Assembly: GCA_030430155.1 (NCBI GenBank)
Contig: JAUIFV010000013.1
Coordinates: 1-48,388, forward strand
DNA length: 48,388 nt
From: Gammaproteobacteria bacterium
Lineage (GTDB): Bacteria; Pseudomonadota; Gammaproteobacteria; Xanthomonadales; SZUA-5
Direction: 5' to 3'
Shown: piece after piece, positions 4,390 through 48,181 of the stretch
Layout of the letters: each line of letters opens with the position of its first letter
How positions within the stretch are numbered: the first letter of the stretch is position 1
Made by a program: the position numbers and the translations under genes
Notes under the pieces: model-generated
Databases searched by the model: none
Seen by the model: only the letters and a program-made list of their open reading frames with translations
Told to the model about the DNA's origin: nothing

Positions 4390-4621
4390 GGCCGATCTCC
4401 TCCTGTGGAGCGGCAAATTCTCCAAATTCGCTCCATTACAGGCCTGATCAAACCCTGATTTAGTGCTGATGACGCGCTTGGCACACGCTGTAGCGCAGGA
4501 CCTGTAACGCACTGTTCCATTTGTGATGGTTTGTCTGCACCCGTATTGCCCGAGGTCTGGCTGAGTACAATTCTTCCAAGGCGGGCGTTGCGGGGCCGCC
4601 GACGTGTACAGGAAGCATGGG
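4390..4621. other. Divergent intergenic region (Asp-box lipoprotein / CadC-like regulator)
   Basis: A 232-bp spacer between two divergently transcribed genes that must hold both promoters. The ribosome binding site of the lipoprotein gene (AGGAGG, minus strand) is at about 4396-4402. AGGAAG for the regulator is at 4610-4615. No convincing operator palindrome was found by eye. Confidence 0.5.
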
Positions 4622-6784
4622 GTGAGTGCCACGGAAAGCACGCCAGCAGATCATTTTCGGTTCGGCCAATGGCAGTTTGACGCTGCGACCGGTGACCTGT
4701 CCGACGGCGCCGTCTGTTCGCGCTTGGAACCCCAGGTTGCCAAGCTACTCACCTATTTTCTCACTCACCAGAATGTGCTGAGCAGCCGCGACGATTTGAT
4801 CGCGGCGGTGTGGGATGGCCGCATCGTTTCCGACGACGCGATCAATCGCTGCATCTCCATCCTGCGCCACACGCTGACGCCGGGCCAGAAAAACGCCTAC
4901 ATCGAGACGGTAGTGCGCAGGGGCTTCATCAGCCATTTTCCCGCCCCGGACCCCGATCCACAGGGGAATCCGGAGCCGGAACCGGCTGCCGACCGCACCG
5001 AGCCGGTCAGCCATGTGCCCTGGCATGTCCGCAAGGGCATCGCCGCGGCTCTGGCCATGCTGGGGCTGCTCTTCGTATTGGGCTATGCGTGGTTCGGAGA
5101 TCGCCCTGCGCTGCAGCCAGCAAGTGGCAGCCCGCCAGCGCAGACGGATGCGCCAGTGGTCGCAGTGCTGCCATTTGCCCACTCGGATTTCGCCGGCGAC
5201 GGCGCGTTCTTCGCCAACGGGGTGCACGATGATCTGCTGACCCAGCTGGCGCAGATCGAGTCGATTCGGGTGATCTCCAGAACCTCAATGCTCGAGTACC
5301 GGGACACCGATCGCAGCATTGCCGAAATCGGTCAGGACCTTGGCGCCGATGCGATCCTGGAAGGCAGCGTACAGCGTGTCGGCGACCAGTTCCGGATCAA
5401 TGTGCAGCTGATCGATGTGCAATCTGATACCCATCTATGGGCCGACCGCTACGACAGGGAGCTGCTGCCGGCGCAGATTTTCCAAGTGCAAACGGAGATT
5501 GCCAGCGCCATTGGCAAAGCCCTGCAGGTGACCCTGAGCGCCGAGGATTCCGGCCAGCTGGCGGCGTTGCCGACCGCCAATATGGCGGCATATCGGGCCT
5601 ACCACGAGGCGATGACCGCTCGCGACAGGGTCAGCGTCAACGCGCCCGAGTATCTTTCCGGTCTGGAACGGGCGGTGAGCTTGGACCCCGAATTCACCCG
5701 CGCCTGGGTGCATCTGGTCGGCCATCTTTGCTATCAGAATTTCTCCAGTCACGACCCTCAGTCCATTGCCCGCATTGAGGAGATCCTGGAGCTGATCCGG
5801 ACCCAGGCGCCCGATTCGGCCGACCTGTGGACGGCGCAGGCCTATTACACCTACTACGTACTAAGGGACTACGAACAGGCTTATGACCTGGTCAAGCGCG
5901 CTCACCTCATGCGGCCCAGCGATGAGCGCGTCGTCGAGCTGCGCTCATACATCGAGCGCCGTCTGGGCAACTTCCAGGCGCGGGTGGATTCGATACGCTT
6001 GTTGCGCAAGTTGGATCCCAGAAATCCGCTGTGGACGACGGTGCTGGCGATCAATCTAGGCCTGACTCATCAATACGCCGAGGCTCTGGCGACGCTGCGT
6101 GACTCCCGATTCGTGGATCGGCAGCAGAGTGTCCTGGCCAGCATGCTGCAAGTGCAAGAGCATGGTGACTTCGAGCGCTGGCGCGCCGAGTTGGATGCGC
6201 TGCACAGCGAGTACGGGGCTGCTTCGGTCACCGCGATGTGGTCGTCGCGCATCGCCTCGCGCGATTATGCAGGCGCGCTGGAGCTGCTGGACGGTCTGGG
6301 TTCGCTCAGCGGCTCGATCGATTTCCCAAGCGCCCCATTGAACGTCGAGATCATGCCACTGATCACTCAATGGCTGCTGGCTGACGGCGATCGCCTCCAA
6401 GCAGAGCTGGAACTGGCGCAGACCAGGCAGGATCGGGTCCTGAGCGGTGAGGATGATCCGCCGGACTATCAGCCCAATCTGGTACTGGCTTATGTCAGTG
6501 CCGCTACTGGCGATGTCGATCAAACCAGGCGACAGCTGCGGCTCTGGCGACGCGAGGTGATTACCGACAAGGCCGAGTACGCGCTGACCAGGCACTACGC
6601 CTGTCGGGCGTTGGGCATGGCCGCGGCCATGCCCGAGACGGTCCAGTGTTTGCGATCAGCACTGACCGAGCCCAGTCTGGCGACGCCGTTCATTGAGCCG
6701 CACTTGCCCTTCTACGAGGGCGTCCGAGGCGAGAAAGATTTTGCTGCTCTGCTGACCGAGACCGCCAGCAAGGATGCTGAATAG
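4622..6784 (+). CDS. CadC-like membrane transcriptional regulator with TolB/FlgO-like and TPR-type domains
   Basis: About 720 residues. The N-terminal 100 residues form an OmpR/CadC-type winged helix, with the usual ending (ISILRHTL, then an R-x-G-F turn near VVRRGF). A proline-rich linker leads to one transmembrane helix at about 138-158 (AALAMLGLLFVLGYAWF). The C-terminal side would be periplasmic. It begins with a domain at about 177-285 resembling the TolB N-terminal/FlgO fold (VAVLPF, then DAILEGSVQRVGDQFRI), followed by about 400 helical residues consistent with TPRs. The GTG at 4622, seven bases after AGGAAG, is preferred to an in-frame GTG at 4604. One-component regulators of this type sense an envelope signal and bind DNA directly. 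The hydrogenase gene 69 bp downstream and the divergent lipoprotein gene are natural candidate targets, by position only. Confidence 0.82.
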   Translation: MSATESTPADHFRFGQWQFDAATGDLSDGAVCSRLEPQVAKLLTYFLTHQNVLSSRDDLIAAVWDGRIVSDDAINRCISILRHTLTPGQKNAYIETVVRRGFISHFPAPDPDPQGNPEPEPAADRTEPVSHVPWHVRKGIAAALAMLGLLFVLGYAWFGDRPALQPASGSPPAQTDAPVVAVLPFAHSDFAGDGAFFANGVHDDLLTQLAQIESIRVISRTSMLEYRDTDRSIAEIGQDLGADAILEGSVQRVGDQFRINVQLIDVQSDTHLWADRYDRELLPAQIFQVQTEIASAIGKALQVTLSAEDSGQLAALPTANMAAYRAYHEAMTARDRVSVNAPEYLSGLERAVSLDPEFTRAWVHLVGHLCYQNFSSHDPQSIARIEEILELIRTQAPDSADLWTAQAYYTYYVLRDYEQAYDLVKRAHLMRPSDERVVELRSYIERRLGNFQARVDSIRLLRKLDPRNPLWTTVLAINLGLTHQYAEALATLRDSRFVDRQQSVLASMLQVQEHGDFERWRAELDALHSEYGAASVTAMWSSRIASRDYAGALELLDGLGSLSGSIDFPSAPLNVEIMPLITQWLLADGDRLQAELELAQTRQDRVLSGEDDPPDYQPNLVLAYVSAATGDVDQTRRQLRLWRREVITDKAEYALTRHYACRALGMAAAMPETVQCLRSALTEPSLATPFIEPHLPFYEGVRGEKDFAALLTETASKDAE

Positions 6785-6807: not shown

Positions 6808-6813
6808 TAGAAT
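6808..6813 (+). promoter_or_regulatory. Possible -10 box for the hydrogenase gene
   Basis: TAGAAT, preceded by GGGCG, lies 40 bp before the chosen ATG at 6854. No good -35 is seen at 16-18 bp, so the gene may instead be read through from the regulator upstream. Confidence 0.3.
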
Positions 6814-6853: not shown

Positions 6854-8932
6854 ATGATCAGGCTGACTGTCAACGGCAACGAGGTCGAGGTCGAAGCAGG
6901 CCAGACGCTGCTTCAGGCCGCCAAGGCCGCGGGCGTGGATCTGCCCACGCTGTGCCATCATCCGCGATTTCCCGGTCGGGCCACCTGCAGGCTGTGCCTG
7001 GTCGAGGTGCAGGGTCAGCAGGGGCCGAAGGCGGCCTGTATTACCCCGGCGCAGGCGGGGGATGTAGTCGACACCGACACGCCCGAACTGTGTGAGTTTC
7101 GCGCAGCCGACGCCGCATGGTTACTGTCTCGTCATCCCGATGACTGCATGCGCTGCGAGGTCAGCGGCTCCTGCCGGCTGCAGACCCTGGTCCGGACCCA
7201 TCAGTGGCAGGACCGCTGGACCAAGCTGCCCAGGGGCTCGCAGCAGCACCCCGAGCACCGCCTCAGCGATCACACCTCGCCCAGCATTCAGACCGACTAT
7301 TCCAAATGCATCGAATGCGGGCTGTGTGTCGACGCTTGCGGCGATGCGTTGCAGCAGCACGTGATCGGCTTCGCCGAGCGCGGCGAGGGACGGATTCCGG
7401 TGACCGCCTTCGATCGACCGCTGGCACAGACCGACTGCATTTCCTGCGGTCAATGCACCTGGGTCTGCCCGGTAGGCGCGCTGATCGAAGTGCCGCACTG
7501 GCACGAGGTTCTGGACGTGCTTGATAGCCAGCGCAGGATCACCGTGGTCCAGGTCGCGCCGGCCACGCGTATCGCCATTGGCGAGGAGTTCGCCATGCGA
7601 CCGGGCACGATCAGCACTGGTCGTTTGATCAACGCACTGCGCGCGCTGGGCTTCGATTACGTCTTCGACACAAACTTCGCCGCCGATCTGACCGTGATGG
7701 AGGAGGCCACCGAGCTGCTGCATCGCTTCCAGGCCAACCGCGAACTGCCGCTGTTCACCTCCTGCTGCCCAGGCTGGATCCACTGGGTGGAGCTGCACCG
7801 GCCGGACCTGCTGGCCCACCTGAGCACCACCAAGTCGCCGCAGCAGATGCACGGCGCGCTGGCCAAGCGCGGCAGCTTCGCGCGATCGCTGGGTGCCGAG
7901 TATGCCGATGGTCGCCGCGAGCCCTATGTGGTCAGCGTGATGCCGTGCACGGCGAAGAAGGACGAGGCCGAGCGACCCGGCAATGCCGGCGACATCGACC
8001 GGGTGATCACCACTCGCGAACTGGCTCGAATGATCCGGTCCCGAGGTATCGCCTTCAATGCGCTGTCCGAGGACGGCGCATTCGACAACCCATTGGGCGC
8101 CAGCTCTGGGGCGGCGCAGATCTTCGGCGCCTCGGGTGGGGTGATGGAGGCCATTGCCCGCGCCGCTGCGCACCTGCTCGGTGTGGAAGACGCCCAGCCG
8201 CTGGATTGGCAGGCCTTCCGCGGCGTCAATGAAGCGGTCAAGTCCGCCGAGATCCCCGGCCTGGGCCGGGTGGCGGTCTGCAACGGCATCGCCGCCGCCC
8301 AGCAGTTGCTGAAATCGGACCACTGGCGAGACGAGTTTGTGGCCATTGAAGTGATGGCCTGTGTGGGCGGCTGCCTGGGCGGCGGCGGCGAGCCCAAGTC
8401 GACCGACCCGCAGGTGCTGCAAAAGCGCATGCGCGCCGTCTACGACATCGACCGCAACAACCCCCGGCGGCGCTCGTTTGAGAATCCAGAGGTTCAGGCG
8501 CTGTATGAGCAGGAGTTGGACCGGCCAAACTCACCTAAGGCGCATGCGCTGCTGCACACCAGCTATGCCATGCGCCGCTCCAAACGACTGATGCTGATGC
8601 GTTTTCTGGACTGCGTGGACCGCCGCGATGGCGCCGGCGCGGCCGCGCTGATGGATCCCCAGGCAATCTGGGCAACGGCATCGCCCTTCGGCGAAGTGCA
8701 CGGCGCCGCGGCCATCGCCGAACTCATCAATCAGCGGTTGCCGCCACGCGGCTTTGGGCCAGCCTATGTGCGGCACCGTATGCGCTGCGCCTCCGATCCG
8801 GACGATCTGGGCGTGATCTCGGTCAATGGCGAGCACTGTCATTTCGATGTCGATCTGGGAACGCTGCAGGAATCCGATGGTTCCAGAACCGTGATCCGGC
8901 GGCTGGAGCGGCACGTGGAGCAACCTGCGTGA
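6854..8932 (+). CDS. [FeFe]-hydrogenase, modular (M3-type), with an extra C-terminal NTF2/SnoaL-like domain
   Basis: The 692-residue product would catalyse reversible proton reduction to H2. N-terminal electron-relay modules come in order: [2Fe-2S] cysteines C34, C45, C48, C62; a His-Cys3 [4Fe-4S] motif (H94, C98, C101, C107); and two ferredoxin-type clusters (C152/155/158/162 and C195/198/201/205). The H-cluster domain has all three signatures: TSCCPGW (C305 ligand, C304 proton relay), MPCTAKKDE (C365, K368) and EVMACVGGCLGGGGEP (C503, C507). Counterparts of the clostridial proton path (E284, E287, S324) are kept. A small-subunit-type tail (about 526-572) ends in KAHALLHTSY. Residues 576-692 are an added NTF2/SnoaL-like domain. 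No signal peptide is seen, so it is probably cytoplasmic. ATG 6854 is preferred to 6812 because it starts directly on the [2Fe-2S] domain. No hydE, hydF or hydG is in the window. NuoG is excluded by the H-cluster motifs. Confidence 0.93.
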   Translation: MIRLTVNGNEVEVEAGQTLLQAAKAAGVDLPTLCHHPRFPGRATCRLCLVEVQGQQGPKAACITPAQAGDVVDTDTPELCEFRAADAAWLLSRHPDDCMRCEVSGSCRLQTLVRTHQWQDRWTKLPRGSQQHPEHRLSDHTSPSIQTDYSKCIECGLCVDACGDALQQHVIGFAERGEGRIPVTAFDRPLAQTDCISCGQCTWVCPVGALIEVPHWHEVLDVLDSQRRITVVQVAPATRIAIGEEFAMRPGTISTGRLINALRALGFDYVFDTNFAADLTVMEEATELLHRFQANRELPLFTSCCPGWIHWVELHRPDLLAHLSTTKSPQQMHGALAKRGSFARSLGAEYADGRREPYVVSVMPCTAKKDEAERPGNAGDIDRVITTRELARMIRSRGIAFNALSEDGAFDNPLGASSGAAQIFGASGGVMEAIARAAAHLLGVEDAQPLDWQAFRGVNEAVKSAEIPGLGRVAVCNGIAAAQQLLKSDHWRDEFVAIEVMACVGGCLGGGGEPKSTDPQVLQKRMRAVYDIDRNNPRRRSFENPEVQALYEQELDRPNSPKAHALLHTSYAMRRSKRLMLMRFLDCVDRRDGAGAAALMDPQAIWATASPFGEVHGAAAIAELINQRLPPRGFGPAYVRHRMRCASDPDDLGVISVNGEHCHFDVDLGTLQESDGSRTVIRRLERHVEQPA

Positions 8933-47578: not shown

Positions 47579-48181
47579 ATGGCCGAGCAGCCAGCCGATC
47601 CCGGCCGTCGTCGTTTCCTGACCGCAACCACCGCAGTGGTTGGTGGCGTCGGGGTAGCGTTCGCGGCAGTCCCTTTTGTCAGCGCCTGGAAGCCCAGCGC
47701 CCGTGCCATCGCGGCCGGCGCCGCGGTCACCGTTGATATCTCCAAACTGGAAGCCGGAGCGCAGCAGCTTGCGACCTGGCGCAAGCGGCCGATCTTCATC
47801 ATCCGCCGTACGCCGACCCTGCTGGAGGCCTTGCCTGGAGAGGATGGTCGACTGAAGGATCCGGGCAGCGAGGTCGTGGACCAGCAGCCCGATTACGCTC
47901 GCAACGGCTATCGTTCGATCAAACCGGACGTGCTGGTGCTGGTCGGTTCCTGCACCCATTTGGGATGTGCGCCCAAGTTCCACCCCGAAGTTCAGCCCGA
48001 GCCATGGGACGACAACTGGCAGGGCGGTTTCTTCTGCCCCTGTCACAACTCCAAGTTCGATATGGCAGGCCGGGTCTATGAAGGCTCGCCGGCACCGACC
48101 AATCTGGTTGTGCCCCCGTATCGCTTCGCTGACGACAGCACCTTGGTCATCGGCGAAGACCCAGAGCAGGAGGCAGCCTGA
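47579..48181 (+). CDS. petA: Ubiquinol-cytochrome c reductase, Rieske iron-sulfur subunit
   Basis: The 200-residue product has an uncleaved twin-arginine signal (RRRFL) with a membrane helix at about 16-36, which keeps the periplasmic head attached. The Rieske [2Fe-2S] ligands are C125 and H127 in SCTHLGC, and C153 and H156 in CPCHNSKFD; the disulfide pair would be C130 and C155. It accepts electrons from ubiquinol at the Qo site of the bc1 complex and passes them to cytochrome c1. Its stop overlaps the start of petB by one base. Confidence 0.97.
   Translation: MAEQPADPGRRRFLTATTAVVGGVGVAFAAVPFVSAWKPSARAIAAGAAVTVDISKLEAGAQQLATWRKRPIFIIRRTPTLLEALPGEDGRLKDPGSEVVDQQPDYARNGYRSIKPDVLVLVGSCTHLGCAPKFHPEVQPEPWDDNWQGGFFCPCHNSKFDMAGRVYEGSPAPTNLVVPPYRFADDSTLVIGEDPEQEAA

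Follow-up and report, generated by a model that had tools for sequence, protein, structure and literature searches.

The gene at positions 6854 to 8932 of the window (the whole stretch of 48,388 nucleotides analysed here, from a gammaproteobacterium) belongs to a real and selected clade of proteins, which have the complete active-site residues of [FeFe]-hydrogenases and an additional domain; the known maturation machinery is missing from the carrier genomes searched. The active-site residues are those by which anaerobes make hydrogen rapidly, here in a mostly aerobic bacterium. By the accepted view, the H-cluster is assembled with HydE, HydF and HydG, and the clade presents fixed active-site residues in dozens of genomes without them. 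Either the cofactor is made or substituted in a new way, or the architecture of the hydrogenase active site was selected for a different reaction.

The features of the gene are collected in Table 1. An in-frame ATG is present upstream at 6812, yet homology begins only at 6854. The Pfam domains of the product were arranged in the order Fer2_4 (E=1e-19), NADH-G_4Fe-4S_3, two Fer4, Fe_hyd_lg_C (E=6e-79) and Fe_hyd_SSU (E=1e-18). The protein scored 427.4 bits against TIGR02512, the model for '[FeFe] hydrogenase, group A' (cut-off 405.95), and 265 bits against PF02906 (cut-off 22); with 644 bits it stayed below the cut-off of 765 for NF040763, the group A6 HydA. Among solved structures, the best match was HydA1 of Thermoanaerobacter kivui (8a6t, E=7e-146), followed by HydA1 of A. 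woodii and CpI. The AlphaFold model (pLDDT 82.6) superimposed with a TM score of 0.89 (by target) on 8a6t and of 0.86-0.88 on CpI.

Table 1. Features of the hydrogenase-like gene in the window. Residue numbers refer to the window protein.
Feature	Positions	Strand	Basis
Whole gene (692 aa), coding for an M3-type [FeFe]-hydrogenase homologue that ends in an NTF2-like domain	6854..8932	+	Pfam, TIGR02512, family of 68 relatives, dN/dS ~0.13
N-terminal NuoG-like Fe-S modules, residues 1-212	6854..7489	+	Pfam; ligands kept in every member covering the region
[2Fe-2S] module ligands C34, C45, C48, C62	within 6854..7489	+	
His-ligated [4Fe-4S] ligands H94, C98, C101, C107	within 6854..7489	+	
Two [4Fe-4S] clusters: C152, C155, C158, C162; C195, C198, C201, C205	within 6854..7489	+	
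H-domain, residues 213-515	7490..8398	+	PF02906 E=6e-79; counts over 68 relatives; fold match to CpI and 8a6t
H-cluster cysteines C305, C365, C503, C507	within 7490..8398	+	
Proton path C304, E284, S324, E287	within 7490..8398	+	
[2Fe] pocket residues A235, P329, Q330, M363, K368, F424, M501	within 7490..8398	+	
Iron hydrogenase small-subunit (SSU) domain, about residues 516-576	8399..8581	+	PF02256 E=1.1e-18, residues 520-572
C-terminal NTF2/SnoaL-like domain, residues 577-692	8582..8929	+	SnoaL_2, AlphaFold, Foldseek

Alignment to CpI confirmed the assignments of the earlier note on this DNA: C304 corresponds to the proton-relay C299, the four H-cluster cysteines (C305/C365/C503/C507) to C300/355/499/503, and E284/E287/S324 to E279/E282/S319. 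The CpI numbers follow a sequence that matches the PDB alignment at the sites used. All ligands of the four N-terminal FeS modules that the note had placed on the CpI (M3) plan were found. Its label of a complete [FeFe]-hydrogenase is justified for an intact sequence of this plan; activity is not implied, as no tested carrier has maturases. The CpI plan itself stood, but the fused NTF2/SnoaL-like domain had been overlooked. The description of the genome was also sound: it is related to Lysobacterales (Xanthomonadales-like in the note), and a Rieske-type N-terminus encoded at 47579-48181 agrees with the bc1 complex mentioned there.

The family was collected by scanning a single genome of each species, which yielded 66 relatives at 63-81% identity; with the own copy and that of a related genome, 68 proteins were aligned. 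The motifs TSCCP, MPCxxK and MACxGGC with the four H-cluster cysteines occurred in 68/68 members, and C299, E279, E282, M353, K358 and F417 (CpI numbers) were likewise invariant, with near-invariance of S319 (67/68) and Q325 (66/68). By the criterion used, just 12 positions set the clade apart from canonical HydA, and these include neither H-cluster ligands nor any of the pocket residues listed. Compared to the same-genus orthologue, dN/dS was ~0.13 for the whole gene and 0.09 for the H-domain, a sign of strong purifying selection.

Residues 577-692 extend past the C-terminal end of CpI and HydA1. A profile search detected SnoaL_2 in 46/52 clade members, and a C-terminal tail was present in 63/63 full-length relatives, less conserved than the H-domain and constrained (dN/dS ~0.2 against the same-genus orthologue). 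Modelled alone, the segment reached an AlphaFold pLDDT of 92, and the predicted structure has the alpha+beta cone fold of the NTF2/SnoaL-like superfamily; Foldseek matched it to ketosteroid-isomerase/SnoaL-like and other NTF2-like folds.

Over the whole set, relatives within the clade had 62-81% identity to the window protein, followed by a gap down to 45% (Thermotogota). The clade was confined to Pseudomonadota and spread over alpha-, beta- and gamma-proteobacteria and Mariprofundus; the carriers include members of Thiomicrorhabdus, Hydrogenovibrio, Gallionella, Nitrosomonas, Janthinobacterium, Pseudoduganella, Thioclava, Alloyangia, Hyphomonas and Brevundimonas. A phylogenetic tree placed it as a monophyletic group on a long stem (support 100), with the HydA of Thermotogota as its sister (99). 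The window protein paired with the same-genus copy (support 100) and then with a copy of the same order (99). The gene is part of a clade spread widely over Pseudomonadota, with a vertical signal within the order, and the taxonomic surprise voiced in the note does not persist as an isolated case. Its expectation of rarity was borne out, with 3/61 genomes in the order sample; in the phylum sample the gene was present in 3/397 genomes, own genome counted. A plasmid-borne family was ruled out by the absence of clade members among 72,556 plasmid records.

HymA and HymB, partners of the NuoE/NuoF type, flank HydA in canonical controls. Adjacent genes for NuoE-like or NuoF-like partners were absent in the clade, except for one locus where they are complex I genes: in the alphaproteobacterial MAG REEB509 (L076:7182-9407) the clade gene sits within the operon for complex I, with nuoD on one side and nuoE-nuoF-nuoG-nuoH-nuoI on the other. 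No other of the roughly 65 loci had this placement, and the single case gives only a hint at the partner. No family recurred among the 103 nearest-neighbour proteins, which ruled out a conserved operon partner or a new maturase next door. The gene just upstream of the hydrogenase gene in the window, on the same strand (4604-6784), codes for a CadC-like winged-helix protein (Trans_reg_C) of 726 aa; it was not kept beside the hydrogenase gene in other carriers.

The window holds no hydE, hydF or hydG, as the earlier note had stated, and it had proposed that the maturases are encoded elsewhere or that the enzyme is orphaned. The genome search it asked for decided for the orphan: profile searches for HydG (TIGR03955) and for the dimer domain of HydF (PF18128) found neither in the window's genome (96.6% complete). 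Both were likewise missing in the same-genus genome G001, in G042 (one contig, 99% complete), in 46 further carrier genomes and in two carriers from the independent phylum sample. The same searches were positive in T. maritima, in 3/4 Thermotogota and in the genome G340 with a Shewanella-type enzyme. The HydA-bearing Kosmotogaceae MAG UBA9910 (Thermotogota; L094, genome G110) had no HydF or HydG match, which may be due to the incompleteness of the MAG. HydE was searched directly in the window's genome (G000), G001, G042 and Hydrogenovibrio halophilus; the sole HydE-like match in the own genome was BioB. HydF-like matches comprised GTPase domains only, none above the cut-off. Maturases elsewhere in the own genome were thus ruled out within the reach of homology, a measure that a wholly unrelated maturation pathway would escape.

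For H. halophilus DSM 15072, a scaffold of 2,356,686 bases was read through, so that the genome was almost entirely scanned. Its ten radical-SAM proteins (MoaA, HemW, RimO, BioB, HemN, MiaB, LipA, RlmN, EpmB and QueE) all passed the curated models of named housekeeping enzymes. Tblastn with HydE, HydF and HydG of G340 and HypB-F of E. coli K-12 retrieved only BioB and generic GTPases, and the control MutS was found. The Hyp system was thereby rejected as a source of CN and CO in this organism, and the large-subunit motif of [NiFe] hydrogenases was not found. In G042, 11/13 radical-SAM matches belonged to named families; the other two had no match at the strict cut-off (L162:1057-1953 and L164:886-2295, no NCBIfam match at E<=1e-25). 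Because every radical-SAM protein of H. halophilus was assigned, these two are unlikely to be general maturases.

We give about an even chance to the reading of the clade as a conserved Fe-S oxidoreductase, proton-coupled and built on a hydrogenase scaffold, which would work without the cofactor made by HydEFG. Should the classical cofactor be missing, the conserved pocket and proton path would point to a redox reaction coupled to protons, with a different occupant of the pocket. The protein would then most likely be a stand-alone soluble oxidoreductase or a sensor. Electrons would pass along the chain of four N-terminal Fe-S centres and reach the [4Fe-4S] half of the H-cluster site, while the protons would take the path C304-E284-S324-E287 to the active-site pocket. 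The pocket would keep the [2Fe]-binding residues for an occupant other than the diiron unit with CN, CO and azadithiolate made by HydEFG. The NTF2-like domain may serve in dimerisation or in the binding of a small ligand, and the electron partner would be a generic carrier, possibly ferredoxin or, on a weak hint, the NADH module of complex I. In CpI, the pocket residues recognise CN, CO and the azadithiolate amine. Their conservation as in true hydrogenases counts against this reading and is hard to explain if a diiron cofactor is never present in the pocket.

By another reading, the protein would be an [FeFe]-hydrogenase that truly converts H2 and obtains its [2Fe] sub-cluster by a route independent of HydEFG. 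Judged from sequence, that reading is possible, if doubtful. H-cluster, pocket and proton-path residues are essentially invariant over the 68 members; and a synthetic [2Fe] complex enters apo-HydA in vitro without any maturase (review PMC7460606), thus maturases are needed for making the cofactor and not for inserting it. PMC4967309 lists Entamoeba among eukaryotes that have hydrogenases and no maturases. Were the classical cofactor made in the clade, it would have to come from a new pathway. However, H. halophilus lacks HydEFG, HypB-F and a spare radical-SAM enzyme, so neither known biological source of Fe-bound CN and CO was found there, and no conserved neighbour offers itself as a candidate new maturase. 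The wider proposition, that true [FeFe]-hydrogenases are widespread in mostly aerobic Pseudomonadota, with the H-cluster or a functional analogue made without HydEFG, Hyp or a recognised radical-SAM enzyme, we would regard as unlikely.

Improbable is a non-catalytic role like that of the eukaryotic Nar1/NARFL, in which a hydrogenase relic would serve as Fe-S scaffold or assembly factor. The absence of maturases from the carriers would suit it, and Nar1 is a precedent of a hydrogenase-derived protein without H-cluster (PMC4967309). But the proton path and the [2Fe] pocket, needless for a scaffold, are essentially invariant, and all four electron-relay modules are intact. Recently acquired or contaminating DNA of an anaerobe, or a decaying gene, can be dismissed as extremely unlikely: the rarity in the order speaks for it, but the GC3 of 0.805 is like that of neighbouring genes, the protein groups with its same-genus and same-order orthologues, the MAG has a contamination of just 0.25%, and the gene is under purifying selection.

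Sequence-based annotation will credit many aerobes with an H2 metabolism they may not have. The carriers include culturable hosts, and both outcomes, a new origin of the cofactor or a different reaction, are directly testable.

Rhodospirillum rubrum is the precedent among proteobacteria: like the window gene, its orphan HydA is a proteobacterial homologue in a genome reported to be without maturases, and it was judged to be probably inactive or to have a different role (PMC4967309, which also describes other alphaproteobacteria with maturases). Thus the idea of a HydA without maturases is not new. The available part of that source contains no description of the broad clade. In the searchable literature, which covers few subscription journals, nothing was found on the breadth of the clade, its fused domain or a radical-SAM audit. 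A link of [FeFe]-hydrogenase and SnoaL yielded one cycloaddition paper, unrelated as judged from title and abstract, and no relevant one in the same literature. The complete Pseudomonadota genome G464 codes for two other M3-type HydA outside the clade (L102:5693-9532 and L103:8313-10175, ~40-41% identity to the window protein), one of them following a HymA-HymB fusion gene; HydF and HydG had no match in this genome, maybe a situation like that of R. rubrum. Nar1/NARFL is described by a loss of pocket residues and a role in Fe-S assembly; the clade keeps the pocket residues, which counts against a place in that group. NTF2/SnoaL/ketosteroid-isomerase-like domains have the same fold as residues 577-692; the similarity is weak and we assign no catalytic role to it.

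The best match in sequence and fold is HydA1 of the electron-bifurcating HydABC (T. kivui 8a6t, Acetobacterium woodii 7q4v; NF040763), with ~42% identity in the fold alignment and the M3 module order, H-domain and SSU in common. Unlike HydABC, the window gene has no HydB or HydC genes nearby, and its genome is without maturases. The NTF2/SnoaL-like domain is an addition relative to both HydABC-type HydA and CpI. Clostridium has HydEFG. With CpI, the monomeric group A enzyme of Clostridium pasteurianum, the identity in the fold alignment is ~35%, and the catalytic, pocket and Fe-S ligand residues all align except S232, which is an alanine in the window protein as in many HydABC.
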